Shown one piece after another: positions 17,643 to 56,800 of a DNA stretch of 64,000 bases. Source of the stretch: a virus. A program made the translations under genes and the position numbers. The stretch spans positions 1 to 64,000 of IMG/VR virus record IMGVR_UViG_3300032297_000372; one strand, written 5' to 3'. Each line of letters begins with the position of its first letter. Position 1 is the first letter of the stretch. The notes under the pieces are model-generated. The model made no database searches, was not told where the DNA came from, and was given only the letters and a program-made list of their open reading frames with translations.

Positions 17643-17645
17643 ATA
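17638..17645 (+). promoter_or_regulatory. Candidate late promoter (AATAAATA) for the tmRNA
   Basis: AATAAATA overlaps the stop of the small membrane gene. Transcription would begin near 17651, just before the tmRNA acceptor piece. Confidence 0.45.
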
Positions 17646-17650
17646 AAGGT

Positions 17651-17941: not shown

Positions 17942-17969
17942 AATAGGACTTTCGGGTCCTATTTTTTTT
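17942..17969 (+). terminator. Rho-independent terminator after the tmRNA
   Basis: AATAGGAC (17942-17949), loop TTTCGG, GTCCTATT (17956-17963), followed by a T tract to 17969. Confidence 0.92.
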
Positions 17970-18018
17970 CTATTATCTCCATAAAAAAATACAATAGGAA
18001 AAATAGATCAAAAATGTA

Positions 18019-34507: not shown

Positions 34508-34912
34508 ATGGCACTCGTAACTACCCAAATACCGCAGAGATATAAAGACTTGGATTTGAGCTTTACTGCTCATCCAATCAAAAAGGACGTCAATACGTTT
34601 GTCGATGATACTGCTATTATCAATTCGATTAAGAACTTAATATTGACAAACCACTACGAAAGACCTTTCAATCCAGACCTAGGTTCAAATGTTCGTAAGT
34701 TGTTATTTGAAAATATAGATGCCGTGACTGCAATTATGATAGAACGTGAGATAACTCAGACTATCGCAAACTTTGAACCTAGAGTAAATGTAATTGGAAC
34801 GACTGTAATACCAGACTATACAAATAATGGTTTTACCGTACAATTATATTTCAGTATAATCAACCGAACAGAGCCAATAACAATTAATTTCTTCCTAGAA
34901 CGAGCACGATAA
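34508..34912 (+). CDS. 25: Baseplate wedge gp25
   Basis: 134 residues (T4 gp25 is 132). IINSIKNLILTNHYERPFNPDLGSNV and the EPR motif in NFEPRVNV are diagnostic. gp25 initiates sheath assembly on the baseplate and has a handshake beta strand that fits gp18. Overlaps gp6 by one base. Confidence 0.93.
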   Translation: MALVTTQIPQRYKDLDLSFTAHPIKKDVNTFVDDTAIINSIKNLILTNHYERPFNPDLGSNVRKLLFENIDAVTAIMIEREITQTIANFEPRVNVIGTTVIPDYTNNGFTVQLYFSIINRTEPITINFFLERAR

Positions 34913-36987
34913 TGGCAAATAGATTAAAAGTAACGGAACTTGATTTTGACCAGATTAAGACCAACTTAAAAAACTTTTTAAAACAACAAAGTGAATTTAC
35001 AGATTACGATTTCGAAGGTGCTGGTCTAAATGTTCTTTTAGATATCTTAGCATATAATACTCACTACAATGCGTATTATTTAAACATGATTGCTAACGAA
35101 TCTTTCATGCACACCGCATTATTGAGAAATTCAGTTGTTGCTCATGCTAAAAAATTAGGTTATACTCCAAGATCAGTTGCAGCCGCAAAAGCAAATATCG
35201 ACTTCACCGTTGTTACTGCCTCATCTACTCCAGAATCTTTGACTTTACCTAGAGGTTATAAGTTTATTTCGAATGCCATCGATGGTGTTCCCTATACGTT
35301 TGTCACATTAGAAGATGTAGTTGTGCAAAAAACAGCAAACAATTTTGTGTTTGGTGATTTAGATATTTACGAAGGGCAATTAGTAACTTATGGGTTTACT
35401 CACAGCGAATCAAGTAATCCTAAACAATCATTCAATCTACCCGATGCAAACATTGATACCTCTACATTAACTGTAGTTGTACGTCAGTCTGTTTCAAATA
35501 CACAATCGTCAATCTATAGTTTAGCTACGGATATTTTATCAGTAACATCCACATCTGAAGTTTATTACTTACAAGAAAGTCAAAACCAAACTTATGACAT
35601 TTATTTTGGTGACGATATCTTAGGTAAAAAATTACCTGACGGTGCAGTTGTAACTGTAAACTATCTAAAAACAAGCGGCCAAAATGCAAACAAATCCTCA
35701 GACTTTGTTGCAACTCAAGCGTTAAATTCATATTCAAACTTTAATATCGTTGTCAATTCTGCCGCATCTGGTGGTAAAGAACGTGAGACTGTTGACGAGA
35801 TTAAATTTGCCGCACCATTACAGTTTACTTCACAGAATCGTGCAGTAACAAAGAACGATTATATTAAATTAATACAACAAAAATACCCTTACTTTGATGC
35901 CGTAAATATTTGGGGTGGTGAAGAGAACGAACCACCAGTTTATGGTAAAGTATTCATATCAGCAAAACCTGCAAATGGGTTTGAACTAACAACAACCGAA
36001 AAAGAACATGTTGTTGAGAATGTACTTAAACCAATCAGTATTTTAACTGTTCGTCCTGAAATTATCGATGTAGATTATAATTTTATTAAAGTATATTCTA
36101 CTATTTACTATGATCCAACAAAAACTCTATTGAATTTGAACATTTTAGAGAACACGGTAAGAACAAAGATACAAAACTTCTGTACATCGAACCTAAATAA
36201 ATTTAATTCATTGTTTAAATCTTCTGGATTAAGAACATCAATTGATTCTTCGGATAATTCTATTCTTTCTAACGAATTAGAGATATTCTTATCGAAAAGA
36301 TTTAATCCAACATTAAATGCTAGTAACGATTACATATTAGATTTTGGTGTAGAATTATCAAGAGGTACAACACTAGATAACTTCTACTCATCACCTAACT
36401 TCACAATGATGGATGAAAATGGTGTTCAGAGATCGTGTTTCTTTGAAGAAGTTCCATCATCATTTACTGGTGTTGAATCGATTACTATATTGAATCCAGG
36501 TATTAATTATACCTCAACACCTACAGTTGAAATTGTTGGTGATGGTACAGGTGCTACTGCTACAGCAGTGATTGTAAATTCAAAATTGCAATCGATTAAA
36601 GTTAATACTCCTGGTATTGGTTATACCACAGCTATTGTTAGAATTACTGGTGGCGGTGGTATTTTAGGAGAAGCTAAGGCTGTATTGGAGAATAGATATG
36701 GCCAAATTAGAATTTCTTATTTTAAACCAGATGAAGTTACTAATCAAAGTACAAAAAATGTTTTATTACCTTTAGCAAATGGTGGCGTTGTCGGTTCTAT
36801 AGATTATCTATTAGGTAAAATAACCATAAATGACTTTGCTCCTTTAGGCATAGATAATGCATTAGGTATAATGACTATTAACGTTAGACCTAAGTCGTCA
36901 GTATTTTATTCACAGAAAAATAAAATGTTGGCTTTTGACATAGAAGACCCGACAAGTGCAGTTGTTACATTAAAAGCTATAAAGTAA
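34912..36987 (+). CDS. 6: Baseplate wedge gp6
   Basis: 691 residues (T4 gp6 is 660). The start LKVTELDFDQIKTNLKNFLKQQ and DYDFEGAGLNVLLDILAYNTHYNAYYLNMIANE are characteristic. Also has GGKERETVDEIKFAAP (baseplate J-like). It forms the iris ring of the wedges. Confidence 0.92.
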   Translation: MANRLKVTELDFDQIKTNLKNFLKQQSEFTDYDFEGAGLNVLLDILAYNTHYNAYYLNMIANESFMHTALLRNSVVAHAKKLGYTPRSVAAAKANIDFTVVTASSTPESLTLPRGYKFISNAIDGVPYTFVTLEDVVVQKTANNFVFGDLDIYEGQLVTYGFTHSESSNPKQSFNLPDANIDTSTLTVVVRQSVSNTQSSIYSLATDILSVTSTSEVYYLQESQNQTYDIYFGDDILGKKLPDGAVVTVNYLKTSGQNANKSSDFVATQALNSYSNFNIVVNSAASGGKERETVDEIKFAAPLQFTSQNRAVTKNDYIKLIQQKYPYFDAVNIWGGEENEPPVYGKVFISAKPANGFELTTTEKEHVVENVLKPISILTVRPEIIDVDYNFIKVYSTIYYDPTKTLLNLNILENTVRTKIQNFCTSNLNKFNSLFKSSGLRTSIDSSDNSILSNELEIFLSKRFNPTLNASNDYILDFGVELSRGTTLDNFYSSPNFTMMDENGVQRSCFFEEVPSSFTGVESITILNPGINYTSTPTVEIVGDGTGATATAVIVNSKLQSIKVNTPGIGYTTAIVRITGGGGILGEAKAVLENRYGQIRISYFKPDEVTNQSTKNVLLPLANGGVVGSIDYLLGKITINDFAPLGIDNALGIMTINVRPKSSVFYSQKNKMLAFDIEDPTSAVVTLKAIK

Positions 36988-39900
36988 ATGTCTATCAATT
37001 ATCTATCACCTCTAGTAGAAAAACAATTACCTGGATTTGTCCGTGAGGAGAATCCAAACTTCGTCACATTTTTGGAGAAATATTATGAGTGGATGGAGAC
37101 TAGTGGTAAACCAATATACGAAAACTATAATTTATTAAACGCTAAAGATATTGATTTAGCTAATGATTATTTTATAAAACAAATTAAAGAAGAATTATTG
37201 CCTTCTTTTCCGGAAGAGATTCTATTAGACGATGTTAAGTTTCTAAAGACAATTAATCAATTCTACAGGTCAAAAGGTACACCAGATTCTATTAAATTTT
37301 TGTTTAAAGTTCTTTATAATGAAAACATAGACATTTATTTCCCTTCTAATGACATTCTAAAATTATCTGATGGTAAATGGGTATTGCCATTAGCATTACG
37401 AGTTGAAACTGCCGATCCTAATATATTCAACTTAGTAAAAACTCAAATACGTGGTACAACTTCAGATGCTACGGCTATAGTTGAGAAAGTAGTAAGCTCT
37501 GTAGATAGAGCATTGGGTATTCAATACATCGAATTATTTGTTTCCAATATTAATCGTTTATTCGCAACTGGTGAAACATTAACTGCATCTTATTTTGACG
37601 GTGAAGATACTATCACCGTTAATTCAAAACTCATCGGTTCTTTATCCGAAATCAAAATTGATCCTAAGAATCGTGGATTGTTTTACAAAGATAATGATCC
37701 ACGTGGACTGTTTTATTATCCAGAAGATATTGAAATACAATACGGCGGTGATCCGGTAACTTTTGTTGGTGGTTTAAATGAAGAAGAAGGATCGAAAGCT
37801 CAACCTGCTGAGGCGGTTGTTGGTGAAGTTCTAAAAGGACAAATTAACGAGATCATCACCGTAGATGGTGGTTTTGGTTTCCGTAGATCGATATACCCCA
37901 ATACATCTATCATTGATTTTAAAGGTGGATTTGCTTCTGGTAGATTGGGTCAAGAATCTAAAGCAGAAATTATTTTGGTTGATGAGAAGAATTATCGTAC
38001 ACTCAATGTTAGTAATATTGAGATACAATCATTTTTTTCCAATACAATCAACTCGATTGATAATGTTGCTAATAACAAAACTATCAATGAGATCACTACA
38101 AAACAATCTTTAAACTTATATTCAATCGCATTCTTATCTGCGGTTTCTTCTGGTGGTGGATATAGCTCTAGACCAGATATTGAAACATATAGTTTATATA
38201 ATGAATCCATAGATGATGAATTAGTTATATCTTCTGCATTTGTTACTCGCAAAACTAACATCATACGTGACAGCACACAAGATTTAACTCAATCGTTAGA
38301 AAAAGGCGATTTAATTCGTTTGTTTGTTAAGAATAGATTTGAACAAGTAGAGACTGTACAAGAAGTAACATCGAATACCTTGACGATTGGTAGTTCATTT
38401 GAAACCAACATCAACAATCTTCAAGTTTATAAAGTACATAGAAGAAACTTAACTCAATTAGGTTCTTTAGGTAGAATTCGAGTTGTCAATGGTGGTAGTA
38501 ACTATAACGTTGGTGACTATTTAATATTCACTTCAAATGGCCGAGGTTATGGCGCAAATGCACAAGTAACTCAAGTCTTTGCTGGTAATAACGGTATTAA
38601 AGCTGCCGAATTCAATGAATCTTCTGCCTATGTTAGAGGTGGTGAAGGTTATACACTTGCAGATTTACCAACAATAACTATCAATAGTGTAACAGGATCA
38701 AATGCTCAGTTGGTTATTCCTGAGATATTAGGTGATGGTGAGAAAGTAGAATTATCTACAAGTAGAATTGGTGCAGTCTCGAAGATCAAGGTTATTAGTT
38801 ATGGTTACGATTACACTTCAGCACCTATAGTATCTTTAAGAAATGCAGATTTATATCTCAGTAATGTAACTGAAGGACTTTTATTTACATCTAATTCAAG
38901 AGTATATCAAGGTACATCAAATACGAATACAACATTCGAAGCTTATTTTGATAAGTATGTTACAGGTAATTCACATGTACGTATTTTCAATTACATTGGT
39001 ACTTTTGATGATACAAAACAATTAAAGTCATTTGATAATACGATTAGTGCAGACATTTATGATTATGTTTTCTTCGGAAACGGTAAAGCGAAGGCCACTG
39101 CTAAATTTGAAAACGGTTTGATTCGTTATCCAGGTATTTACTTGAATGAAGACGGTCAACCAAGTTCAGAGAAAAGATTCCAAGATGCCAATAAGTATCA
39201 TAATTTTTCATATGTTATTAACACTGAAAACGACTATAAGAAATTCTCAAAAACATTATCGGATGTTTTACATCCAGCAGGAACAAAATCTTTTGTAACT
39301 CGTATAAAGAAATTCGATAATGATGTTGCTAGCTTAATAATCACAAGTAATAATTATATAACTACTCCCTTGTCTAATACATTTAACGTTTTTGTCGGAA
39401 CAGGCATTGCTGTGGTCACAGGCAGTTCAGCCAATGTCAACTTAGCATCTTCAATTTCTGTTGGCGACACTATTGTTTTCCGTAATCTTTTAAAGACTTT
39501 AAACGGTACAGTATCATATGTTTCTGGTTCAAATACCATAACAGGTAATGGTACAAACTTTATCAATGACATTTATGATGGTCAAGTAATTAGATTAGTT
39601 TCTGGAAATAGTGAAGTTGTGGCTTATGTCACCAATGCTAATTCAATAATAACACAGAATACTTTAACGTCAACTGTATCAAACGGAACTATTTCTCTAT
39701 ACTATGATGAAGTTGATACTGTAACTTTTGTAAACTCGAATACTATTTTCGTATCTACAATATTCCCATCTAGTGGTTCTTTTGTTTCTGCTAATCTGAA
39801 GATAGACCTTGGTGCAGCATCATCGTTACGTGATATAAGAATTAGTACTGATATTCCTTCTATAAATCTTTATGCTGGTGAAGCAAATAACTTCACACCT

Positions 39901-42900
39901 GTTACTGCATCTGGTGGTATTGGTGGTATTGCCGGATATTTAATAAGTCCTATATTGCCTGATGGATTAGTATTGATTTCTTCTAATGGTAATATTCGTG
40001 GAACACCTACAGTAATCAGAACTCCAACAACATATACTATTACTGCTTATGATAGAAGAAGTCGTGGCGCAAATGCAACATTTACTTTAGGGGTTACACC
40101 ACAACCATTAGTAGCTTTACGGTCAATTGCATCTCGAACAATAAGTGCTAATACATTAGCCACAACATTTAGACCAGTAATACCATCTGGCGGTTATGGT
40201 AGTGTCAGATATACCGTTACTCCATCATTACCATCTGGAGTAACTTTTGATACGTTTACAGGTAATCTTGGCGGTATACCTTCAGTATTAAGAGCTGCTA
40301 ATACATACACTATAAGTTTAGTTGATGATGTAGGTCAAACTTCAAGTAATACATTCTCACTAACTGTAAACGCATTACCAGTAATAACATCAACAATAAT
40401 ATCATCTAGAACATTAACTGCAAATATTAGCAACGCATTTACACCTATAACTGCCACCGGTGGTTATGGTGGATTAACTTATAACATTGCGCCAAGTTTA
40501 CCAACAGGATTGACATTTGATACTGCTAATGGATACATCTTTGGAAATACTGAGACAACTCTAATTGCCAATACATTTACTATAACTGCAAATGACGGAA
40601 CTGGTCAATCAACAAGTAATACATTTAATTTAACTGTAAGTTTACCAACACCAATAACAGCAAGTCTGATTATTGATACTAGAACATTAACAGCTAACAT
40701 TGCTAATTCGTTCACACCTGTAACTGCAACTGGTGGATATGGAAACTTGACCTATAGTATTTCGCCAAGTTTACCAACAGGATTAACATTTAATACCTCG
40801 AACGGTTATATTACTGGTGTTACTTCAGTATTGTCATCTAACACATCATACACTATAAGTTTGGTTGATGAATACATACCAGTTCAAACAGCTTCTAACA
40901 CATTCTTCATGAATGTAGCTCCACCTGCGTTAACAAGTACTATGGCATTAGTAACTCGAAACTTGATAACAAATAGTGCGAACAGTTTTGAAACATTAAC
41001 AGCTTCTGGTGGTTATGGTCAAATAACTTATAGTATTAATCCTGCTCTGCCGTCAGGACTTTCACTGAATACATCTAACGGTTTCATATCAGGAACTCCA
41101 TCGGCGAATACAAATTTAACAACTTACACCGTAACTGCTAATGATGGAGTTGGTCAAACAACAAGTAATACATTCACAATGAAAGTATATACTCAGTTAT
41201 TGACTAGATCATTGATCGCATCTAGAATTTTAAATACTAATGTTGCTAATAGTTTCTTACCAGTTATTGCCGTAGGTCCATCTACATCAGGCGGTAGCGC
41301 AAATGCCTATTATTTTGATGGTGCCAATAGTGGTTTTGTAATAAGAGACTGGTATAATGCTTATCAAATATTTGAAACTGATAACAGTCGTGTTGATGAT
41401 TTTACAGTTGAATTCTGGATTAAAGCAAATGCTGCAAGTCAAACCGCCAACGCTACTATAATACAAACTGATTTTAATTATAAAACTCAACTAGAAATTG
41501 CAGTTGGTTCTGATATTACTGGTGGTGCAGGTAGAATATCATTCTCACCTCTAGCCATAGTAGAAACTGCTAATAGTGGTTACTATGGTGAACCTACTGG
41601 TTTGAAGATAAGTACACCTGGTAATTACTTAGATGATATATGGCATCATGTTGCTTGTGTGAGATATAACGATACAGGTTACATATATGTTGACGGTGTG
41701 TTAGTTGCTAATAGTGCTGCTGGTGCTTGGGATGCGGCCGCACTATATCCTGACGATTATTATTTTGTAGGTTCTGATTTTTATATTGGCCGAGCAGGTC
41801 GTTCTGGAGTCTATCCAGAATTTGAATTACAGGCCGATAATACTTTTGCTGGTTATTTAAGTAATTTTAGAATTTCAAATACAGCAGTATATACAACTAC
41901 ATTTACTCCTTCAACAACTCAATTAACCAGAACAGTAAATACTGCAATATTATTGAATCAAACAACAATTGTCAATAACGGCAGCGCCAGCTTTGGTAGC
42001 ATTGCTGCTAAAACCGTATTACCAACAGTTACTACAGATACGACTGTATTCAGCGCACCTAGCGTTAATTTAACTACAGGTGTAACTTATAGCATTGCAC
42101 CAAGTTTACCAACAGGTTTGACATTTGATACTGCTAATGGATTCATTACGGGTAATTCAGCTCAAACTGTAATTGCTAATACTTACACAGTTTCAGTTAG
42201 TGATGAAAGCGGACAGGTAAATAGCAATACATTTATAATGAGTGTTGTACCTACTTTAGTTCTGAATACAGGTATACCATTTAAGTCATTGGCAGCAAAT
42301 AGTGCAGATGCATTTACACCAGCAAATGTTTCTGGTGGTGCAACACCATACACATATAGCATTACACCAAGTGTACCTACAGGTTTATCGTTCAACACAT
42401 CTAATGGTTATATTAATGGAGCTGCTTCGGTATTATCAGTTAATACCAGTTACACAATAAATGTAACAGATTATCTCTCACAGACAGTTTCAAATACATT
42501 CACCATGAATGTTGCAGCTTCAGCCTTAACAAGTACTATGGCATTATCGTCTAAGAACTTAACAATAGGCATTGCTAATAGTTTCAACACATTAACAGCT
42601 TCTGGTGGTTACGGAACAATAACTTATAACATTGCACCTTCATTACCAGCAGGTTTAACATTCAATATTTCAACTGGTCTAATATCTGGAACAGCATCAG
42701 CTAATACAAACTTAACAACATACACCGTAACTGCTAATGATGGAGTTGGTCAAACAACAAGTAATACCTTCACAATGCAAGTGTATTATCCTTTAGCGAC
42801 TAGAACATTGGTTGCAACTAAAACTTTAAATACTAATGTTGCTAATAGTTTCTTGCCGATCATTGCAGTGTCGGGTTCAACATCCGAAACTTCAAACGTA

Positions 42901-45900
42901 TATTATTTCAACGGCACATCACAAGGTCTCAGATTACCAACTACAAGTAATTTAGATTTTGGTTCTGGTGATTTTACAGTTGAATTCTGGATGAAGGCTG
43001 GAAGCAGTCAAAAAACTTATGCAATGATTACTGATGCACTTGGTAGTAACGATAAAGTTGGTATTGGTGTTGGTATAAACGATGGTAATACAGCAGGTTA
43101 CTTACGATTTAGAGCACAATCTTCGGCCGTTAAGATTTCAAGTACAACATACGTTTTAGATAACCAATGGCATCACATTGCTTGCGTTAAGTCTGGTAAC
43201 AATGGTTATGTATTTGTTGATGGTGTATTAGAGACAAGTACTTCTTCATGGTCTGGTGTAACTAACGCATCATTAAGTGATGGCCAGATTGGTCGTTCAC
43301 GTTTTAGTTCTGGTACCTCTAATGATAACCAATATACTGGTTATATTTCTAACTTTAGAATTATTAAAGGAACTGCTTTATATACCAGTTCATTCTCGGT
43401 ACCGACAACCGTACCAAGTGCAATTGCTAATACCCAATTATTACTCACCAGTGCCAATGGAGCAATCGATAGTAGTAATAACGGATTTACATTAACGGCA
43501 AAAACAGTATTACCAACAGTTTCTACAGACTCAGAAGTATTATCTGGAGCGAGTTTAAATTTAACTACAGGTGTAACTTATAGCATTTCTCCAAGTTTAC
43601 CAACAGGATTAACATTCGATACTGCTAATGGATTTATCACTGGTAATACGGCACAAACAATAATTGCCAATACTTACACAGTTTCAGTTAGTGATACTTC
43701 CGGCCAAACGGCAAGTAATACATTTATAATGAATGTTGTTCCAACACTAACTGTGACTACAGGTATTTTATTCAATTCACTAATAGCAAATTCTGAATAT
43801 GCGTTTACACCTGCAAATGGAGTTTCTGGTATAACTCCATACACTTATAGCATTTCTCCAAGTTTACCAACAGCATTAACATTTGATACGGCTAATGGTT
43901 ATATTAGTGGAACTGCTACCGTATTGTCATCTAATACCAATTACACAATAACAGTAATTGATGATGTTTCACAGATAGCTTCAAATACATTTACTATGAA
44001 TGTTGTTAGTCCGGCATTAACAAGTACTATGGCATTATCTTCTAGGAATTTAAGAACAGGTGTTGCTAATAGTTTCGAAACATTAACAGCTTCTGGTGGT
44101 TACGGAACAATAACATACAGTATCAGTCCAAGTTTACCATCAGGACTTTCACTGAATACATCTAATGGTTTCATATCAGGAACAGCTACATCGAATACAA
44201 GTTTAACAACATACACCGTAACTGCAACTGACGAAGGAAGTCGAACGACAAGCAATACATTTACAATGCAAGTGTTTGCAGAGTTATCCACTGTAACATT
44301 AGTTTCTTCTAAACTGTTTACAAATGTTTCTAATAGTTTCGTACCAGTTATTGCAGTATCTAACTATACGATATCAAATACAACAAATTCAACTGCAAAT
44401 GTTTATAGCTTTGATGGCACATCACAAGGTCTCAGGTTACCAACCACAAGTAATTTACAATTTGGTTCTGACGACTTTACTATTGAATTCTGGATGAAGG
44501 CTGATAGTATTCAGGAACCATATGCTACCATTATGGATGCTACCAACGATAACACAGGAACTGGTATTGGTGTTGGTTATAATGGTACTGGTACTCCTAG
44601 TAAGTTAAATTTCTTTGGTCAAGGTTATGTTGCACCCACATTATCTAGTACAACTACTGTTACAAATAACGTATGGTACCATATTGCCTGCGTCAAATCT
44701 GGTAGCAATGCATATTTGTTTGTTAACGGTGTACTCGAAGCAAACTCAATCGGTGGATGGTCTGGCGTAAATGCTGCAACAATGAGTGATGGCCAGATTG
44801 GTCGTTCACGTTACGGTTCTGGTGATTCGAATGATAACACATACACTGGTTTACTATCCAATATTAGAATTATTAAAGGAACTGCTTTATATACCAGTTC
44901 ATTCTCGGTACCGACAACCGTACCAACTACAATTGCTAATACTCAATTACTATTAACTGGCGCTAACGCAGCAATCGATAGTAGTAATAACGGATTTACA
45001 TTAACGGCAAAATATATATTACCTACAGGCATCACAGATTCATCATTCTTAGTTGTTGCTGGTGAATCACAAAATGCAACCGTGAATTTAACTACAGGTG
45101 TAACTTACAGTATCAGTCCAAGTTTACCTGAAGGAATAATATTGAATACATCCAATGGTTATATTAGTGGATACGCATCAACAGAAATAATTGCTAATAC
45201 TTACACCATAACTGTTAATGACGTTACTGGACAAACAGCAAGTAATACATTTGTGATGAGTGTTATTTTACCAATAAGTACCACGACCATAGTCTCTAAA
45301 ACATTAACAACTAATATCGCTAACTCATTTACACCTGTAACAGCTGAAGGTTATGGCAATGTAACATATAGTATTTCACCAACTTTACCAACAGGATTAA
45401 CATTTGATACTGCTAACGGTTTTGTAACAGGATCAACAGAATTTAATACGAACTTAACAACATACACTGTAACTGCAAGTGATGAATTAAGTCAAACCGC
45501 AAGTAATACATTTATTATGAAAGTTTATCAAACTTTGACAGCTTACACATTGATACCTTTTAGAAGTTTTGCTCCAAATACAGCTAATAGCTTCTTACCG
45601 GTTAGTGTATTGTCGGGAACATCAGAAGGTTCTGCATCAGTAAATGTGTATTACTTTGACGGTGTAAACAAAGCCTTTAAATTACCAGCCACAAGTGATT
45701 TAGCATTTGGTTCTAGTGATTTTACCATTGAATTCTGGATGAAGGGTTCACCTATTCAAGACTACTATGCTATTATTATGGATGCAGGTTATTGGGGTAG
45801 TGTACTCAAAATACAATTTAATGAATCCACTCAAGACGGTTCTATAATATTTAATCCAGATCAAAACTCAGTAGGTCCTTTAGCATCAACAACACTATTA

Positions 45901-48900
45901 AACGATGAAACTTGGCACCATATTGCTTGTGTTAAATCTGGAAATAATGGTTATTTGTTTGTTGATGGTGTACTAGAAGATAGTGCAACTGGTTGGAGTA
46001 GTATAAATTCCACAATGAGTGAAGGTATAATTGGTAGATCAAATTATGCAAATGCTACTCTTAGTGATAATGCATATACAGGTTATCTCAAAAATATTAG
46101 AATATTAAAAGGTACAGCATTATACACAAGTACATTTACACCTCCATCAACAGTAAGCGCAATCGCAAATACAGTTTTATTAGTAAACGGATCAACAATT
46201 ACTGATAGTAGTAATCTAGCTTTATCATTCACTGCAATTACTGTACTGCCTAGTATATCTACAGAAACAATAGGAGCAACATATGAAACGGGCAATTTAA
46301 CTTACAGTATCGCACCAAGTTTACCAACAGGATTAACACTCAATACTGCTAATGGATTTATCACCGGTAATACAGCACAAACAATAATTGCCAATACTTA
46401 CACAGTTTCAATTGGTGATGAAATTGGACAATCATCAAGCAACACTTTCGTAATGAGTATTGTAACTCCATTAAGCATGAGTACAAGTGATACTGAATTA
46501 TCTGTTGGTATTGGATCTAGTTTTAGTTCTACACCTGCAACAGCAACAGGTGGTGTTGGAACAATAACTTATAGTATAGACGGATTAGGTGGCAATACTT
46601 TACCTTACGGATCTACGATAAATTCATCTAATGGTAGAATTTCGGGATTAGTCGCTGTCGAACCTGGAAGAGCAGCTAATGCATATCCATTATTAAGTAC
46701 GATTAAAGTAGTTGCTAATGATAGTTCTAGCCAGCAAGCTTCAAGTGCTAATATACAATTTACTGTTCGTGGTCCATCAGTACCAACATCAATTACAAGT
46801 AGAGCTGTTCGAAGTGTTATAGCAAATACAACATATGCATCAATCAATATTGGTGTAGTGACTGGTGGTTTAGGAGACCTGAAGGGATACATTGTACCTG
46901 TATCTCTTGGAGAATCAAATGCTGCTCTGCATCCATTAGCGTTCTCAAATGCTGTTCCGGGTATGACATGGACATTTGATCCTGCATCTAACACAGTATT
47001 CGTTTCAGGCACACCAACAAAAGCAATTGGTTTCCAATATGGTGTAACAAATAATTTCTTAGGTATACTCATCGAGCCATCAACAACTAGAAGTTTTTAT
47101 ATTCAAGGATTCGATGGAACTAGAAATAGTGGTAAAGGATTTAATAGTAGTTTCGAGTTCAACGTTCAAGCATCACAATTCTATGCTAATACAACAACAT
47201 CAGTTGTAGTGTTTAATACGAAAACCTCGAATACATTTACACCTATAACCGTATCTGGTGGTTATGGAGTAAATGGAAAAATAACATTCGCATTATCTGG
47301 AAATACATTGCCTGCTGGATTATCATTCAGTAATTCTAATGGTGCAATTACAGGTACAGTTTCAAATGTTTATGTTTCGAATACATTTACAATAACTGCT
47401 AATGACGATTCCTTCCAATCAGCATCGAATACATTTACATTACGAGTTGATGCTAGCCCATTAGGAACCATATTATCCGAATCAACAAAAACTCTTGCGT
47501 TAAATACTGCAACGAATTTCACAGTGGTAACAGCAACAGGTGGTGCTGGAATAATAAGCTTTGCTTTAAGTGGTAATACTTTACCTAGCGGTTTAACATT
47601 TGAAACTTCTAACGGTGCAATTATAGGTACACCAACAGTTCTATTAACTGGAAATACCTATACAATTACAGCGAGTGATTCTGTAAGTAATACATCTGCA
47701 CAAACTTTTGTGTTGATTGTTGAAGAGCCAGTATTTAAATATCAGTTAGCTGATGGTGGTTGGATTGCTGATGCTTCTCCTTTAGCTTCTCCAATTTCTT
47801 TAGCTACAGTAAGTCAAACTGGATCACCAACTACAACCAATTCTCCGACAATCAGTACAGATACACCAGCGACTGCGAATGCTTATAGTTTAAATACAGT
47901 GTTTACTAAGTTATTCTACTCAGGAACTAATACTGGATACTTCTTAAATACCGCACCAAATCCAGCATACACATTAGGAAATAGTGATTTTACTGTTGAA
48001 GCTTGGGTTAAATTAACAAACTCCACTTTTGGTCGAGAACAGTTATTGGTAAGAAAAGGTACATTATGGGATTATAGTATGGAAGGTGGTGATCCTGCTA
48101 CCGCTACCGAATTTACAACATCAAATTCAACAGCAATAGTGAGACTGTCTGAGTATGGTTCTAGGAACGCACAATTCGATCCGTTCTTTAATGTAGATGC
48201 ATATGATAATTATGATATAGCAACTTATAGTGGAAAATGGACGCATTTTGCTTTAGTATTTAAGGCTAACACATCAGGCACTACTATTTCAGGAACTAAT
48301 GATGTGGATGCGGGTACAGTAACAATCTTCCTCAATGGTCGACCATATTATACTGAACTTGTACCTTACGCATATGGTGACAATACCATACAAGTTACGG
48401 ATCCTAGTTTATATAATATTGATTTTGGTGGAAATACAGGATTTAATTTTGCACAAACATTAGGTAAAATTTATAAACTGAAAATAAGTGATAAAGTTGT
48501 TTATCCTGTTAATGAATATTTCACACCTACGCCTGATTATGGTGTAGATTCTAATACATTATTCTTCCTAGATGTTGCAGATTCAAGTAATAATTACTAC
48601 ACAAATGCTAATAATTATACTTCGCAGATTAAACTTGTTGATTTTGTGGCTAATACTATGGTAAATCTCGAAAATAATAATGAAGATTCTTTAGCTAATA
48701 CTATTACTTTAAGTGCAGATATACCTTCTGGAGGAAATATCAGTAGTAATAGTTCTCAGACTACAGCTAATGGAAGTGGGTTTGGTTGGTTTATCCAAAA
48801 CTATTATTATAGTTATCTTAATAAAGCTGTTTATAATGTGTATAGTCAGAATTGGACAGTAGAATCATGGTTTAAGTGGTCAACATCAAATTTTGCCAAT

Positions 48901-49428
48901 ACACAACAACAGGGAACTTTATCTCAAAGTTTTAGTCAATTCGACTTAGCAACATCCTCCGCCACAGGAGCAAATGCTAACGGTGTAATGTCTTTATCAA
49001 TATATGATGTGACAACTGAAGCAGGTTCAAATAAAGGTAAAACTTACACGATGGAAGGTATATCATATAACTACGAAACCGCTGATAATACTTGGCATCA
49101 TTTGGCTTTTGTTTATGAATATCCTAATCTTTGGGTTTATATTGACGGTCAACCTAGATCAAATGTTATAACAAACAAACAAGATATTAATCTAAGTACT
49201 GGAGTAAGAACAACAAACAACAGTATCAATCAAGAAAATACGAGAATGAATACGGATGGCTCCGCACTCAACATTGGTATGTTCCCAGGCAAAATCTATA
49301 AGTATCGATTCAGTAATACTGCGGTATATACTGGAAATACATCATTTACACCTTCAGCATCATATGGTGTAACTCCAAATACAGTATTCATGTTAGGAAC
49401 TAGAGAATATCGTGATTACAATGTATAA
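36988..49428 (+). CDS. 7: Giant gp7-type baseplate wedge protein fused to Ig-like and LamG-like repeats
   Basis: 4,146 residues; T4 gp7 has 1,032. Residues 1-776 carry the gp7 core of marine T4-like phages (PGFVREENPNFVTFLEKYYEW, FYRSKGTPDSIKFLFKVLY, FSKTLSDVLHPAG). After a beta-rich stretch, about 955-3578 hold tandem putative Ig (He_PIG-like) repeats of 80-90 residues with GGYG, SPSLPTGL, NGxIxGT and ASNTF. Six LamG-like (concanavalin-type) domains with FTVEFWMK and WHHIACVK lie at about 1434-1668, 1970-2175, 2470-2676, 2885-3086, 3630-3860 and 3932-4146. The extension is probably a receptor- or glycan-binding fibre. The frame is unbroken. Confidence 0.85.
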   Translation: MSINYLSPLVEKQLPGFVREENPNFVTFLEKYYEWMETSGKPIYENYNLLNAKDIDLANDYFIKQIKEELLPSFPEEILLDDVKFLKTINQFYRSKGTPDSIKFLFKVLYNENIDIYFPSNDILKLSDGKWVLPLALRVETADPNIFNLVKTQIRGTTSDATAIVEKVVSSVDRALGIQYIELFVSNINRLFATGETLTASYFDGEDTITVNSKLIGSLSEIKIDPKNRGLFYKDNDPRGLFYYPEDIEIQYGGDPVTFVGGLNEEEGSKAQPAEAVVGEVLKGQINEIITVDGGFGFRRSIYPNTSIIDFKGGFASGRLGQESKAEIILVDEKNYRTLNVSNIEIQSFFSNTINSIDNVANNKTINEITTKQSLNLYSIAFLSAVSSGGGYSSRPDIETYSLYNESIDDELVISSAFVTRKTNIIRDSTQDLTQSLEKGDLIRLFVKNRFEQVETVQEVTSNTLTIGSSFETNINNLQVYKVHRRNLTQLGSLGRIRVVNGGSNYNVGDYLIFTSNGRGYGANAQVTQVFAGNNGIKAAEFNESSAYVRGGEGYTLADLPTITINSVTGSNAQLVIPEILGDGEKVELSTSRIGAVSKIKVISYGYDYTSAPIVSLRNADLYLSNVTEGLLFTSNSRVYQGTSNTNTTFEAYFDKYVTGNSHVRIFNYIGTFDDTKQLKSFDNTISADIYDYVFFGNGKAKATAKFENGLIRYPGIYLNEDGQPSSEKRFQDANKYHNFSYVINTENDYKKFSKTLSDVLHPAGTKSFVTRIKKFDNDVASLIITSNNYITTPLSNTFNVFVGTGIAVVTGSSANVNLASSISVGDTIVFRNLLKTLNGTVSYVSGSNTITGNGTNFINDIYDGQVIRLVSGNSEVVAYVTNANSIITQNTLTSTVSNGTISLYYDEVDTVTFVNSNTIFVSTIFPSSGSFVSANLKIDLGAASSLRDIRISTDIPSINLYAGEANNFTPVTASGGIGGIAGYLISPILPDGLVLISSNGNIRGTPTVIRTPTTYTITAYDRRSRGANATFTLGVTPQPLVALRSIASRTISANTLATTFRPVIPSGGYGSVRYTVTPSLPSGVTFDTFTGNLGGIPSVLRAANTYTISLVDDVGQTSSNTFSLTVNALPVITSTIISSRTLTANISNAFTPITATGGYGGLTYNIAPSLPTGLTFDTANGYIFGNTETTLIANTFTITANDGTGQSTSNTFNLTVSLPTPITASLIIDTRTLTANIANSFTPVTATGGYGNLTYSISPSLPTGLTFNTSNGYITGVTSVLSSNTSYTISLVDEYIPVQTASNTFFMNVAPPALTSTMALVTRNLITNSANSFETLTASGGYGQITYSINPALPSGLSLNTSNGFISGTPSANTNLTTYTVTANDGVGQTTSNTFTMKVYTQLLTRSLIASRILNTNVANSFLPVIAVGPSTSGGSANAYYFDGANSGFVIRDWYNAYQIFETDNSRVDDFTVEFWIKANAASQTANATIIQTDFNYKTQLEIAVGSDITGGAGRISFSPLAIVETANSGYYGEPTGLKISTPGNYLDDIWHHVACVRYNDTGYIYVDGVLVANSAAGAWDAAALYPDDYYFVGSDFYIGRAGRSGVYPEFELQADNTFAGYLSNFRISNTAVYTTTFTPSTTQLTRTVNTAILLNQTTIVNNGSASFGSIAAKTVLPTVTTDTTVFSAPSVNLTTGVTYSIAPSLPTGLTFDTANGFITGNSAQTVIANTYTVSVSDESGQVNSNTFIMSVVPTLVLNTGIPFKSLAANSADAFTPANVSGGATPYTYSITPSVPTGLSFNTSNGYINGAASVLSVNTSYTINVTDYLSQTVSNTFTMNVAASALTSTMALSSKNLTIGIANSFNTLTASGGYGTITYNIAPSLPAGLTFNISTGLISGTASANTNLTTYTVTANDGVGQTTSNTFTMQVYYPLATRTLVATKTLNTNVANSFLPIIAVSGSTSETSNVYYFNGTSQGLRLPTTSNLDFGSGDFTVEFWMKAGSSQKTYAMITDALGSNDKVGIGVGINDGNTAGYLRFRAQSSAVKISSTTYVLDNQWHHIACVKSGNNGYVFVDGVLETSTSSWSGVTNASLSDGQIGRSRFSSGTSNDNQYTGYISNFRIIKGTALYTSSFSVPTTVPSAIANTQLLLTSANGAIDSSNNGFTLTAKTVLPTVSTDSEVLSGASLNLTTGVTYSISPSLPTGLTFDTANGFITGNTAQTIIANTYTVSVSDTSGQTASNTFIMNVVPTLTVTTGILFNSLIANSEYAFTPANGVSGITPYTYSISPSLPTALTFDTANGYISGTATVLSSNTNYTITVIDDVSQIASNTFTMNVVSPALTSTMALSSRNLRTGVANSFETLTASGGYGTITYSISPSLPSGLSLNTSNGFISGTATSNTSLTTYTVTATDEGSRTTSNTFTMQVFAELSTVTLVSSKLFTNVSNSFVPVIAVSNYTISNTTNSTANVYSFDGTSQGLRLPTTSNLQFGSDDFTIEFWMKADSIQEPYATIMDATNDNTGTGIGVGYNGTGTPSKLNFFGQGYVAPTLSSTTTVTNNVWYHIACVKSGSNAYLFVNGVLEANSIGGWSGVNAATMSDGQIGRSRYGSGDSNDNTYTGLLSNIRIIKGTALYTSSFSVPTTVPTTIANTQLLLTGANAAIDSSNNGFTLTAKYILPTGITDSSFLVVAGESQNATVNLTTGVTYSISPSLPEGIILNTSNGYISGYASTEIIANTYTITVNDVTGQTASNTFVMSVILPISTTTIVSKTLTTNIANSFTPVTAEGYGNVTYSISPTLPTGLTFDTANGFVTGSTEFNTNLTTYTVTASDELSQTASNTFIMKVYQTLTAYTLIPFRSFAPNTANSFLPVSVLSGTSEGSASVNVYYFDGVNKAFKLPATSDLAFGSSDFTIEFWMKGSPIQDYYAIIMDAGYWGSVLKIQFNESTQDGSIIFNPDQNSVGPLASTTLLNDETWHHIACVKSGNNGYLFVDGVLEDSATGWSSINSTMSEGIIGRSNYANATLSDNAYTGYLKNIRILKGTALYTSTFTPPSTVSAIANTVLLVNGSTITDSSNLALSFTAITVLPSISTETIGATYETGNLTYSIAPSLPTGLTLNTANGFITGNTAQTIIANTYTVSIGDEIGQSSSNTFVMSIVTPLSMSTSDTELSVGIGSSFSSTPATATGGVGTITYSIDGLGGNTLPYGSTINSSNGRISGLVAVEPGRAANAYPLLSTIKVVANDSSSQQASSANIQFTVRGPSVPTSITSRAVRSVIANTTYASINIGVVTGGLGDLKGYIVPVSLGESNAALHPLAFSNAVPGMTWTFDPASNTVFVSGTPTKAIGFQYGVTNNFLGILIEPSTTRSFYIQGFDGTRNSGKGFNSSFEFNVQASQFYANTTTSVVVFNTKTSNTFTPITVSGGYGVNGKITFALSGNTLPAGLSFSNSNGAITGTVSNVYVSNTFTITANDDSFQSASNTFTLRVDASPLGTILSESTKTLALNTATNFTVVTATGGAGIISFALSGNTLPSGLTFETSNGAIIGTPTVLLTGNTYTITASDSVSNTSAQTFVLIVEEPVFKYQLADGGWIADASPLASPISLATVSQTGSPTTTNSPTISTDTPATANAYSLNTVFTKLFYSGTNTGYFLNTAPNPAYTLGNSDFTVEAWVKLTNSTFGREQLLVRKGTLWDYSMEGGDPATATEFTTSNSTAIVRLSEYGSRNAQFDPFFNVDAYDNYDIATYSGKWTHFALVFKANTSGTTISGTNDVDAGTVTIFLNGRPYYTELVPYAYGDNTIQVTDPSLYNIDFGGNTGFNFAQTLGKIYKLKISDKVVYPVNEYFTPTPDYGVDSNTLFFLDVADSSNNYYTNANNYTSQIKLVDFVANTMVNLENNNEDSLANTITLSADIPSGGNISSNSSQTTANGSGFGWFIQNYYYSYLNKAVYNVYSQNWTVESWFKWSTSNFANTQQQGTLSQSFSQFDLATSSATGANANGVMSLSIYDVTTEAGSNKGKTYTMEGISYNYETADNTWHHLAFVYEYPNLWVYIDGQPRSNVITNKQDINLSTGVRTTNNSINQENTRMNTDGSALNIGMFPGKIYKYRFSNTAVYTGNTSFTPSASYGVTPNTVFMLGTREYRDYNV
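43355..43417 (+). repeat. 63-base perfect direct repeat, copy 1
   Basis: Identical to 44864-44926. Both are at the end of adjacent LamG domains; other long near-identical stretches surround them. Signs of recent duplication or gene conversion. Confidence 0.9.
44864..44926 (+). repeat. 63-base perfect direct repeat, copy 2
   Basis: Copy of 43355-43417, 1,509 bases later, which equals one super-repeat. Confidence 0.9.
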
Positions 49429-49466: not shown

Positions 49467-50807
49467 ATGTCAACTATAATAACCACAAATTTTTCAACTG
49501 AAATCGCACAACAATTCTATAATCTTATGGATGTTAGTGCTAACGATTATCTTCCTGATGATAGAAAATCATACCTCTATTGTGCTGTGGGTAGAGAATT
49601 GCCATGGAATGAAGGACAAGAAATTGAGCCAACACCAGGTCAATCGACAAGAGATTTAATTGAATACTATGATGAAGGTATTGTCGCTAAGCGAATGACA
49701 TTAAACGATGTAAGTTTTGTTATTCCTAGAATTGACTGGACTTCCAATACAGCATATGCACAATATGGATGTACTGTATGTCCTATTAACACCAATTTTT
49801 ATGTATTGAATTCTAAACGACAAGTTTTTAAATGTTTAGACAACAATGGTGGTATAAATTCTACGTATGAACCTGAGATTACTTTATCAACCACTTCATT
49901 AGAAGAACCTTATTTTGTTACAGGTGATGGTTATAAATGGAAATACCTATACACATTAACCACATCACAACAAGAAAAATACTTAACCGAACGTTGGATG
50001 CCGGTTACATACAATAGATTCGTCAGAAATGCTGCTATTAATAGGAGCATAGATATTGTAAGAATTACAAATGCTGGTAATAACTATGTCGATGGTTCTT
50101 TACAATCAATTATAAGTATCGATGGTGATGGTGGCGGCGCTGTTCTAAGAGCAAATGTAATCAACGGACATGTCTCAGAAATAATTATACAAGACAGAGG
50201 TTTAGGTTATACTAAGGCAAATTTAATATTTACTGATGTTGCCGGCGGTATAGGTTCAAATGCTGCAGCTAGCGTAGTGTTATCACCACAAAACGGTCAT
50301 GGATATAATCCAGCACAAGAATTATATGCAAACACCATCATGTTTAATGTTGATTTTGATGGATCGGAGTCTGGAGTTTATCCAGTAGAAAATGATTTTC
50401 GTTTAGTTTATATAATTAAAAATCCTTATAAAGCCGGAACATTAGAACTTGCAGATTCAAACATATACACTTTGTACACAAAAGTAGATGTTTCACCAGG
50501 TATTGGTGATTACAATGATGACGAATATGTTTTCCAAGGTGATTCTTTTGATGAAGCAACTTTTAGAGGAACTGTAATTTCATTTGATGAAGCTGCAAAT
50601 CAATTATATCTAAATGATATAAGAGGCACATACAATAACAACATACCACTTAAAGGCAATCTAAGTGGTGCGATTAGAATTGCTTTAGCAAAAACAGATC
50701 CGACATTAGCATTATATACTGGTGATATACTGCATGTTTCAGAGATAATACCGATTTCTAGAAGTGAAAACCAAAAAGACAGAATAAAATTCATACTAAG
50801 TTTTTAG
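49467..50807 (+). CDS. 8: Baseplate wedge gp8
   Basis: 446 residues (T4 gp8 is 334). Features of the marine T4-like form: N-terminal YLYCAVGRELPWNEG, DVSFVIPRIDWTSNTAYAQY, then FYVLNSKRQVFKCLDNNGG and YKWKYLYTL. gp8 is a wedge dimer that joins gp7 and gp10. Confidence 0.82.
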   Translation: MSTIITTNFSTEIAQQFYNLMDVSANDYLPDDRKSYLYCAVGRELPWNEGQEIEPTPGQSTRDLIEYYDEGIVAKRMTLNDVSFVIPRIDWTSNTAYAQYGCTVCPINTNFYVLNSKRQVFKCLDNNGGINSTYEPEITLSTTSLEEPYFVTGDGYKWKYLYTLTTSQQEKYLTERWMPVTYNRFVRNAAINRSIDIVRITNAGNNYVDGSLQSIISIDGDGGGAVLRANVINGHVSEIIIQDRGLGYTKANLIFTDVAGGIGSNAAASVVLSPQNGHGYNPAQELYANTIMFNVDFDGSESGVYPVENDFRLVYIIKNPYKAGTLELADSNIYTLYTKVDVSPGIGDYNDDEYVFQGDSFDEATFRGTVISFDEAANQLYLNDIRGTYNNNIPLKGNLSGAIRIALAKTDPTLALYTGDILHVSEIIPISRSENQKDRIKFILSF

Positions 50808-50820
50808 TAACGAGGAATAA

Positions 50821-53800
50821 ATGACAAAACTTTTCAATTTTGACCCATATAACGATGATTTTGATGAAGATAAAAACTTCATGCGTCTATTGTTTAGACC
50901 GGGTTATGCATTACAAGCAAGAGAACTAACACAATTACAAACCATTTTATCGAGTCAGATTGAAAAGTTTGGTAACCATATCTTTCAGAACGGTAGTCCA
51001 ATTACTGGCGGTAAAATCTCTCTTGATGATAGAGCTAACTATGTTATTTTAGAAACTCAATATTCAGGTGCAGATATTTCTTTAGATTTGTTCCTGAACA
51101 CAACTGTTGTCAGTTATAACTCAACTAAAAATGTTCGTGCTAAAGTTATTGCTATTGATAATAATACCAATACAACACCTGTGATGATTGTTAAGTATTT
51201 GAGTGGTGATAGATTTGCTGAGACTGATGAGATAAAAGTTGTAGGTCAAAATTTATTTGCTCAAGTTAGAGCCAATGATGCTGTTGGTCGTTCTTACGTT
51301 GCCAGCATTCAAGAAGGTGTTTATTTCTTCAAAGGACAATTTGTCAAAGTTGTTCCAGAATTTCTAGTATTAGAACCATTCTATCGTGTAGGTAATAACT
51401 CTACTGTTATCAACAAACAACCATCATACAAAATTGGTATTGAATTCGATGAATTGGTTATCGATGAAGTTGATGATGCTTCTTTATTGGATCCTGCACA
51501 AGGATCATTTAACTATCAAGCACCAGGTGCTACTAGATTTAAAGTCGATACTCGTTTGTCTAAGAGAACATTAGATTCTGCTGACGAATCTTCATTCTTT
51601 GAAGTTATTCGTTTAGTTAACGGTGTAAAAACTAAAGAGATTGATTATCCAATTTACAGTGAATTGGAAAAGACATTGGCTCGCAGAACATTTGAAGAAT
51701 CTGGTAACTATACTGTTGATCCTTTTGTTCTTTCAATGCAAGAAGATTGGCAAGATCCAGCAAATAACAATGTTGTTAATGCTGATTATTTTTCTGCTAT
51801 TCTCGATCCAGGTAAAGCATATGTTGGTGGTTATGAATTTCAAACAATTGCACCAACAGTATTAGGTATTCCAAGAGCAAGAGCTACATCTAACGTTTCT
51901 GATTACGATGTGCCTACTTCATATGGTAGTTATGTTTTTGTTAAGAACGTTTCTAAAACATTAGATGTTACTTCTTTCCCACAATTAGATATACATTGCG
52001 TTTCAGCTGAAAAAATCGATACATCATCTACAGCAAAATATGATTCTACTAAAATAGGAACATTACGTGCTAACATGTTGAAATATGATGATGCAACATC
52101 TAGAGCTGATGGGCTAACTCATATTCACAGAATGCATGTGTTTCAAGTTAACACATCTTCAATCATAGGTACTACTGCGGCATCAGCATCTACAAATACT
52201 GTAGTTAAGTTGCCAACTTCATTTACTGCTAATGGTGGTATTAACGCATATGCAAATATGTACTTTAGAATCACTGATGGTGCTGGTCTTGCAGTTGCAC
52301 CTATTCTGATTGAATCTTCTAACAATGCTAATTTGACAATTACATTGCAATCTGCATTACCTTTTATTCCTGCATCAAATGCTTTCTCTATTGATGCTGA
52401 CTTTTATAGAGCAGAAGGTTTTTCGGTTAAGAGTGGTACATCATTAACATTCTCAGCAAACGTTGATAGTTCATCAAAAGATACAGATGGTTTCTCTTTA
52501 ATTACTGAAAAGAGTAGAGAGAATGCTGTATTTGATTTGCCATTTGAAGCTATCAAACAAGGCACTATTGATAATTTCGATTTCTATGCCACAAAATTAT
52601 ATTCAAATAAAGTTTCTAATTTAGGCGGAACAATTTCTTTCGCACCTAACGGTACAGATACTTTTGCTTTTGCTGGTTCAGCTGGTGTTTTAGGTCAAAC
52701 AACAATTTTGAATAACATTATTTGTTTTGTTCGACCAGAAACAAATGCGAACGTTCAATTTGGTATCTACCCAAATACAATTTTAAGTTTAGCAAATTCA
52801 AACTTCACCGTTACTGCTGTTGGTGATGGTTCGTTGACATTTGACATTAGAGTTCCTGCAACTTATGTTGATTTCTTAATTAAGACTAAAGTTAATAATG
52901 CAGAAGCTGGTGCAACTGGTGCTATTCGTTCTAAGACACTGCGACCATCATTAAGTGCTGCTGAAGATTTGCATGTTAAAGTTCCTTACAATTTAAAACC
53001 TGCTGGTACAGATTTAGAAAGATTAACATCATCAAATACAGGAACAGTAACAACATTTACTGGTGGTTATGTTTTTGAAACTGTTGGTGCTACATTCTTT
53101 GACACAACTAGTGCGATGGCAGATTTGAAAACACCAGGTAAAGCAGTAAGTTTACAAGTACCTGATATTTTCGAAATCGTTAGAATTACCGACTCACGTA
53201 CCAACACCACAAATGTTACAACTGCAATGTTGACGAGTGACGACCATGATGTCACATCACACTATGAATTTGATAATGGCCAAAGAAGAACACATTACGA
53301 TCACGCTACTATACGTCTAAAACGTGGTTATAGTTCGCCTATCGGATCAACTTTATTGGTGCAATACAAATACTACGCACATGGGTTATCACCACAAAAT
53401 AGTGGATTGTTTACTGTAGATTCTTATCCAGGTGATTATGCTGATATTCCATTATTTAATGACAAAGAGGGTAATCGATTAATTTCAGCACGAGGATTTT
53501 TAGACTTTAGACCTACGAGAGCTATTGCAGGAACAACAATTGCAAACGGTGTTAATGCTGATCCGGATGAAGTTGCGGAATTATCTTTTGAACATTATCT
53601 ATCACGTATCGATCAAATCGTTGTTAAACCTTCAAAAGAAATTGGTGTAATACAGGGGCAACCAGGTGTTAAGCCTGTACAACCTACCGTATCTGGTGAT
53701 GATATGTTGATATACACACTGTATATCCCACCATATACTGATGATGTAAAAGTAATTCGTGCAGATTTCAAAAATAACCGTAGATTCACCATGAGTGATA

Positions 53801-56800
53801 TCGGTGCGTTTGAAAATCGTATTAAAGGTTTAGAATATTATGTTGCTCTGAACGCACTTGAGAAAAATGCAAATGATTCAAAAGTTCTAGATGCCAATGG
53901 TTTAGAAAGATCGAAATATGGTATTCTAGTAGATAACTTTACTTCAACAGATGTACAAGCATCTTACAGTGATGTTAGTTTTGACAATCGTTGCTTAGTA
54001 GAAAACGGTGAGTTGAAACCAGCCTCATTAATGCGTACATTTAAATTAGATTTTGATGAAGATGCTTCTTCTGGTAATTATGCTGCTGTTGGTGTAGCCG
54101 ATAAGAAAACATTAATGTTGGCATATTCAACAACAGAAATGGTTAAACAACCTTACGCTACTAAAACTGTTCCTGTTGCTGGTGCCATTTATGGTAACTT
54201 TAACGGAAAGATGAAACTTTTCCCAGAATTTACCATGGAAAGTGACATCGATAAAACAGCAAGAGTTACATTGAATTCTGTTCAAGGATTAGAAAATGCA
54301 TTTAATTTCGTTAATGAGGCATTTCAATTTATAAGTGATGCAAATCCTACATGGGTAAATGATGCTAACAATCCTTTCGCAAAAGTTGTAGATTCTAAAT
54401 GGTTCGAAACAGTATCAACTGTTACTAATCAAACCGTAGGCCTTGGTGGTAATGTTTTTGGTAATCAACAAATTACTACAGACCGTGTTTACATTTCAAA
54501 AGGCGCCACACTAAGTCAAGAACAATTTGGTGTTTCAACCAGCGAAACTAAAATTGGCGATTTCGTTACTGATGTTTCTATCAACCCATATTTGAAGCCT
54601 AGAGCTATTACATTTATCTCTAATGCTCTTCGCCCATTCACAAGATTCTATTCATTCTTTGATGGTACAGCTGTAGATAACTTTATCGTTATTCCTAATA
54701 AAGTATATTTGGGTGCGAACACAGAATTCTCTGATGGTGAGGTAGCACTTTTAGCAAATAATACTGGTGAATTAGCTACTCAATTGAATAGTTGGTTGGC
54801 TGGTGGAACAGCTTTCAATTTAGTTCGTGTAGTTAATTCAATACCGGGAACAAATACAGTTTCAATTGTTAATGAAACTGGTTTAGCATTAACTGGTAAA
54901 TATCTAAAAGGATTGACATCACTAAAAGAAGGTTACATATCTACTTTAGTTGAACATAAGTCTGGTATAACACGAACCTTAACATCAAATACTATTACAT
55001 TAGCTTCAGATGCTCCTTCTGTTAATATTGCTGGTAACACAATATACTTCATACACGAAGCCTCAACTGAAGAGGGTAGAGGTTCTTCTTATACAATTAC
55101 AAACTATAATACAACAACTAAAGTTGCTAATATTTCAGGTACACTCAGTACCACAGATGCAGCTTCAAATAGTTGGATATATTCTATAGGTACAAACATA
55201 ACAAATAAACATGGAGATATTGCTGGTGTATTCTACCCACCAGCAGCAACATTCCGTACAGGCGAAAGAAAACTACGATTAACAGAATCATTCAACAACA
55301 CTTATGATTTAGATTCTATTTCATTTACTGAAAAGACTTTTGTATCTTCAGGTGTAACTGTTAACAAAACAACTTTAGTTGATACAGTTTACAATGTGGA
55401 TGTTGGTGTTAAAGTTGTAGGTACAGCTACTTCAGCAATCTTACAATCTACCGCTTCTGAAAGTAGAATTACAAGTACATGGCGAGTTGACCCATTAGCA
55501 CAAACTTTCTTTGTTGATCCTTCAGTATATCCAAATGGATTAACAATGTCTAGTGTTAATGTATTCTTTAGTTCTAAAGATGATGATTTGCCCGTATCAG
55601 TACAAATCCGACCTACAATTAATGGATTACCTTCTTCCGATTTCTGGTATCCTGAATCTGTTGTTGTTAAAAATCCTAATGATGTTACTATTACTTCAGC
55701 TCCTGATGCGGATGATTTAACAACATCAACTGAGTTTACTTTCCCTTCTCCTGTTTTCTTAAAACCAGGTCTGTACGCACTAGTTGTATTGTGTGATAGT
55801 CCTGATTACATAGTATGGACAGCAGAAAAAGGACAAACAACCACAGGCGGTCAGTACGTTTCAATTAATCCTTATGTTGGTACATTGTACAAATCTCAAA
55901 ACTCTATGGAATATGTTCCATATATTAATGAAGATTTGATGTTTGTTTTGAATAGATGTGTGTTTACAACAGATCCAGCAAACTTCGTATTAAGAACTCC
56001 AAACTTTGATAGAAAGTATAACATCGATAAGTTTAGATTGCTTGATCGAGGAATATCATTACTTTCAAATGAAGCTTTCTCTGCAAGTTATTCTTTCATT
56101 TCTAAACCTGTAGATGGTGTTAAAGAAACGGTATATAGAACTATTGAGCCAAGAGTAACTTACTATATGGGTGACGATACAAAATATGCTATTGGGTATA
56201 GAAGAAAAGAAGTTCAGAATTCTGGCGATTTCATGATTAAATATCAAATTTCTACCAATGATCCTGCCGTTTCACCGATGGTATCTTTAGAAGCTATGCA
56301 CTTAAATGCATGGGAAAACTTCATCGACAATGCTGAAATTAATGAAGAAGATTTTAATATCATATCACCAGGTTCTGGTTATGCAAATTCGAATACAGTT
56401 ACAATCTCATCAACTACAGGTTCGGGTGCTTTAGTTTATCTGAATGTTGATCCTAGTGGTAACGTTTTAAGTTTGAATGTTGCTGCAAGCGGTACAGGTT
56501 ATTTGGATGACTTTAGTATTTCAGTTCCAGTAACTGCTTCAAATGCTTCTATTGTATTGAATAGTGAATATGATAGTTCTGGCGGTCCATGTTTAGCAAG
56601 ATACATTACAAAACCAATTACTCTTGCTGATGGTTTTGATGCTGGCGATATAAGAATATTCTTATCAGCAAATAAACCGACTGGTACAGAAGTTACTGTT
56701 TTTGCTAAAATTCTATCTTCATCTGATAGCACTCCATTTAAAGATAGAGGTTATCAGAAATTAGAATGCTTCAATCCAACAAACTTTGCTACAACTAAAG

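Follow-up and report, generated by a model that had tools for sequence, protein, structure and literature searches.

In phage T4, gp7 is a wedge monomer present in six copies per tail and acts as the organiser of the baseplate wedge (PMC3004832), and two gp6 chains associate with one gp7 in the (gp6)2-gp7 heterotrimer (PMC6300606). Far larger gp7 proteins, up to 7,312 aa and in some cases with LamG domains, are already annotated in cyanophages of the Kyanoviridae ('baseplate wedge initiator', T4-GC 397 of P-SSM4; phrog_701). Those checked here measured 7,312 aa in P-SSM4, about 7,124 aa in P-SSM7, 6,817 aa in ACG-2014d and about 3,048 aa in S-PM2. Sullivan et al. (2010) noted gp7, gp10 and gp12 simply as highly divergent (PMC3037559), and a literature search with subscription journals mostly outside its reach found no paper describing gp7 as an adhesin platform. 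At the locus analysed here, a sequence-only reading had proposed a gp7 core fused to Ig-like and LamG-like domains and had suggested a search for gp7 fusions in other phages. Such fusions are found in the cyanophage proteins, which occupy the same gp6-gp7 slot (with gp25 upstream where seen) and join a core to thousands of extra residues in one gene, several of them with LamG. Extension of gp7 is therefore not unprecedented, and the novelty implied by the earlier reading is reduced since the cyanophage proteins are mostly longer than the one described below and some carry LamG in the same position.

The window, the whole stretch of DNA that was analysed, comprises bases 1–64000 of a 91,613-base record from a virus taken to infect aquatic bacteria. 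It contains a T4-like contractile-tail module consisting of tube cap, wedge subunit, hub, gp25, gp6, a giant gene and a gp8-like gene, with terminase, sheath and tube genes further along the same record. The giant gene, assigned to the gp7-type baseplate wedge proteins from its Pfam and PHROG matches, is a single intact ATG-to-stop reading frame at 36988–49428 on the plus strand and encodes 4,146 aa, which bears out the unbroken 12.4-kb gene of the earlier reading. The probability of such a stop-free frame arising by chance is about 10^-135 at this base composition. At 4.0 times the length of T4 gp7 (1,032 aa) and roughly 4.5 times that of its short cousins, the protein is fairly described as expanded fourfold. 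It is preceded on the same strand by genes for gp25 (34508–34912) and gp6 (34912–36987), both identified by profile matches, and followed by a gp8-like wedge gene (49467–50807, +; phrog_438, E 5e-88). The giant gene starts at the base right after the gp6 stop, and its slot between gp6 and gp8 is the one expected of a gp7-type wedge gene when compared with the T4 order.

Several other features of the record were observed. The gp6 protein, the gp8-like protein and a 2,055-aa DUF4815 protein (50821–56988) all matched phrog_460 (head closure Hc2) in one and the same region, and gp6 and gp8 matched phrog_701 as well; these matches suggest a small domain common to several virion proteins. Tandem repeats, mostly of 63 bases, lie at 58346–59121 within a gene for a probable tail fibre of 1,086 aa. 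On the 3' side of the tail genes a cupin protein adjoins a radical SAM protein (60492–62020), of which a second copy is found some 5 kb on, at 66331–67356 of the record. A permuted two-piece tmRNA at 17600–17992 (+), with the tag ANDESYALAA and a score of 163 bits against Rfam beta_tmRNA, hints at a host of betaproteobacterial type; two-piece tmRNA is already known in phage, for example in Melnitz (PMC9004378).

The gp7-type core spans aa 1–945 of the giant protein (36988–39822, +), as delimited by whole-length homology to stand-alone proteins of 920–937 aa. Its N-terminal part matched the Pfam family Baseplate_wedge (PF23786) at 41.5 bits, with a cut-off of 27, and the core matched the PHROG 'baseplate wedge subunit' phrog_17744 at E 7e-51. 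Alignment with T4 gp7 itself, whose known counterparts include TssG and P2 gpI, was confined to aa 6–120 (37003–37347, +), a helical stretch that aligns with T4 residues 645–762 (phmmer E 7e-4 and 3e-3; hhalign probability 92.5). The N-terminal 640 or so residues of T4 gp7 have no counterpart in the giant protein, and T4 gp7 in turn carries no Ig/LamG array. The proposed gp7 core thus holds as to type, from family matches and gene slot, while a full T4-type gp7 is ruled out; by homology the core is a minimal gp7-type wedge protein, not one of T4 length. A second gp7-like frame was not found in the 91.6-kb record. The core is in one piece, whereas that of the cyanophage proteins is in two, with an insertion of several hundred residues between them. 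An AlphaFold model of the core, built from 17 sequences, reached a pLDDT of 55 and gave no T4 gp7 match in Foldseek; it was dropped as evidence of fold. The six copies put forward by the earlier reading are supported by homology to T4 gp7 with its six per tail (PMC3004832). Carried over from T4, one gp7-type copy would be present in each wedge, in contact with a gp6 dimer and gp8.

Relatives in IMG/VR show where the core ends. Full-length homologues with 44–54% identity were found in uncultured phages (L004–L009, L011–L015, L037 and others), and most of them are complete proteins of 920–937 aa that end where the array of the giant protein begins and have no array themselves. In the cultured Caulobacter phage Cr30 the gp7-like protein is a 777-aa frame with the core near its start, and it resembles the core of the giant protein in being of the short kind, with the core at the N-terminus and without the T4-length part. 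From these comparisons the array is a C-terminal addition to a gp7-type protein. Among 81 gp7 reading frames with an intact C-terminal end, taken from the fetched loci (best 80 per search), Ig repeats occurred only in one contig, L002, which was listed twice since L097 is the same contig. Nearly all the other intact frames measured 485–1,877 aa, in a count that is biased against giants as contigs break at repeats.

The array C-terminal to the core consists of approximately 17 Ig-like domains and of six LamG-like ones, of which four are clear and two weak. The Pfam family He_PIG matched 17 stretches with 390.5 bits, above the gathering score, in agreement with the more than a dozen Ig repeats claimed earlier. 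With an Ig HMM built from contiguous repeats only, and hence free of LamG sequence, these resolve into 12 contiguous repeats, four that are split by LamG and one that is divergent. The first five contiguous repeats occupy aa 953–1406 (39844–41205, +; Pfam and Ig HMM) and the last two aa 3401–3584 (47188–47739, +; Ig HMM). LamG 1 (aa 1439–1687; 41302–42048), LamG 2 (aa 1970–2184; 42895–43539), LamG 3 (aa 2471–2687; 44398–45048) and LamG 4 (aa 2886–3096; 45643–46275), all on the plus strand and identified by HMM, lie nested in Ig repeats. They are followed by the weak domains 5 (aa 3640–3892; 47905–48663, +) and 6 (aa 3925–4146; 48760–49425, +), obtained by iterative HMM. Regarding the six LamG-like domains of the earlier reading, the iterative HMM did recover six; Pfam Laminin_G_3 on the whole protein passed five stretches (227.9 bits, above the gathering score), and as fragments the last two scored 22.1 and 23.4 bits, below the cut-off of 27.6. 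The putative carbohydrate binding of the LamG-like domains, as also claimed, does not follow from their fold, since LamG/ConA-like folds bind proteins as well.

The nesting was evident from how the Ig repeats are divided. The pieces in front of LamG 1–4 matched the Ig HMM from position 2 or 3 to position 24–28, and the pieces behind them from position 26 or 27 to position 88, so that the split halves meet at the same place around all four central LamG domains. The simplest reading is that each of these LamG domains would be carried within a loop of an Ig domain. In L002, matches in front of its LamG 1 and 2 were weak (E 0.07 and 0.015) while the halves behind them fit, and LamG 4 is not nested there. 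Structure prediction, named earlier as a check, succeeded in part. In an AlphaFold model of an Ig-LamG-Ig cassette the Ig domains were predicted well (pLDDT about 75–90), but the LamG part was poor, and the folds of core and LamG were not confirmed. As the model does not resolve the nesting, the latter rests on the HMM halves. The best Foldseek match of this low-confidence model was to SraP and other bacterial adhesins that combine lectin and cadherin-like domains (fragment of 4m03, 30% identity over 152 columns); these are found on the bacterial surface, not on virions, and the likeness is in fold only. A tblastn search of the Ig array against phages gave no match, with a low-complexity filter that may mask such repeats. 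LamG 2 as a query matched cyanophage proteins named 'baseplate wedge initiator', and ACG-2014d, the only cyanophage gp7 scanned with Pfam, carries YHYH and two LamG domains and no He_PIG Ig array.

A close relative with a different array was found in L002, a separate record. Its protein of 3,543 aa is 603 aa shorter, with a core 95% identical, and gp6, core and gp8 are all about 95% identical at the protein level. At the DNA level, identity is 91% over window positions 34901–40858 (gp6, core and first Ig repeats) and 94% over gp8, and on the 3' side homology resumes at the stop codon of the giant gene. Between these borders the arrays differ in length, order and content. This pair also bears on the question of whether the giant frame is an assembly chimaera or an artefact of collapsed or expanded repeats, as might come about from short reads in a metagenome-derived record with repeats. 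L002 has the same 5' and 3' junctions, with gp6 and core before and gp8 after an open array of its own, and a chimaera is unlikely because a second independent contig shares them. The frame is moreover open for 12.4 kb, the LamG-containing cassettes differ from each other (about 45–64% identity) and are not easily collapsed, and GC by codon position is coding-like along the whole gene. We regard an artefact as very improbable.

The same comparison revealed exchange of modules. A cassette with LamG 4 at 45635–46267 (+) is 94.8% identical in DNA to L002:12312–12944, in a different setting within the L002 array, and identity in the flanks drops to chance within about 30 bases on both sides. In this one pair of contigs, on which all rate comparisons rest, dS was 0.16 for LamG1 and 0.09 for LamG4, as opposed to about 0.29 in both core and gp6 and to 0.26 in gp8. 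LamG dS below that of the backbone suggests that these modules were exchanged after the two backbones had diverged. Protein change in the array was faster than in the backbone for this pair, with dN/dS of 0.27 (Ig1-3), 0.38 (LamG1) and 0.49 (LamG4) compared to 0.07 (gp6), 0.09 (core) and 0.09 (gp8). Positive selection is not claimed for the array as dN/dS stays below 1.

Taken as a whole, we consider the giant protein to be a six-copy gp7 wedge component with a flexible C-terminal adhesin arm under rapid modular turnover, to which we assign a probability of roughly 0.68. The gp7 identity put forward earlier is supported, the fusion is real and well supported, and the array is best read as an adhesive arm; its position in the virion, its adhesion and its ligand are inferred, host binding from architecture and turnover. 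By homology and gene order the core would lock together with gp6 and gp8 in the wedge, and the arm would extend from the gp7 C-terminus, one per wedge and, by homology, six per virion. A stalk formed by some 17 Ig-like domains, an estimated 70 nm or so when fully extended, would leave the baseplate, and the LamG-like domains may form side lobes on it, given that four interrupt an Ig repeat at the same loop. A build of this kind, in which lectin-like lobes sit on an Ig stalk, is typical of adhesins. The most likely targets of the arms are glycans or proteins at the surface of the host, or of its surroundings, which would be bound prior to irreversible attachment or in the course of it. The arms would be reshaped rapidly as similar repeats recombine and whole LamG domains are traded with related phages. 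They would supplement the tail fibres for which the genome has distinct genes further on; other fibre genes encode proteins of 2,121 and 858 aa, and a 304-aa LamG protein stands apart between two tail-fibre genes (76657–77571 of the record). Given these genes, it does not follow that the arm is the receptor-binding protein.

The presence of other tail-fibre candidates for host recognition also fits an adhesin for the environment that, like T4 Hoc, would hold the phage near its hosts by attaching to particles, biofilm matrix or eukaryotic mucus instead of to a host receptor, and adherence to mucus or epithelium has been demonstrated for Ig-like domains of phages (PMC13370021). The array is however on the baseplate wedge while Hoc is on the capsid, and exchange of modules is seen more typically in host-binding proteins, even if compatible with an environmental adhesin; we hold this to be unlikely. 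Ig-like domains are also common structural add-ons of virion proteins. The array could be mainly structural, either a scaffold or a spacer, and serve to hold fibres or to widen the baseplate while its domains bind other virion proteins, in keeping with gp7 as organiser of the wedge (PMC3004832) and partner in the (gp6)2-gp7 trimer (PMC6300606). Conservation comparable to that of gp6 and gp8 would be expected of a scaffold; the array differs between phages that are about 95% identical in these proteins, and the short cousins manage without it, which renders a chiefly structural role improbable.

Extensions other than Ig/LamG arrays were observed on gp7-type proteins of further contigs. The protein of L140:9959–13420, about 1,150 aa long, has just one LamG domain near the C-terminus, possibly a simple form of the arrangement in the window. 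The proteins of L023, L024, L029 and L030 measure 1,766–1,877 aa, and that of L023, the only one of these scanned, ends in an RCC1-like propeller; L010 gp7 has a propeller-like insert. L145 and L143 encode 1,772 aa with a C-terminal extension of about 800 aa, which in L145 matched no Pfam family. In another viral contig, the open frame L062:3857–20587 runs to 5,577 aa or more; LamG was hit 22 times in it, and a gp7 core was not detected.

Compared to the cyanophage proteins, what is new here is that Ig and LamG domains are nested, that this architecture was gained in a lineage other than the cyanophages, and that the swapping of modules is visible. The strongest of the new elements are the nesting, the clean before-and-after comparison and the exchange of modules between near-identical phages. 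Tentatively, and with more doubt than confidence, the gp7 C-terminus may be a general docking point at which contractile phages of water bacteria acquire interchangeable arms for adhesion (Ig/LamG arrays, LamG, propellers), providing a second, wedge-borne receptor recognition that evolves by transfer of whole modules, with LamG nested in Ig loops allowing swaps without breaking the stalk. Two phages this close whose arrays nevertheless differ constitute a direct natural test of the role of the arm, and the thinly described giant gp7 proteins of cultured cyanophages would allow that role to be studied in the laboratory. Should the arms bind hosts, part of host recognition sits in the wedge itself and not in separate fibres, and host-range predictors restricted to tail fibres would miss the wedge-borne part.
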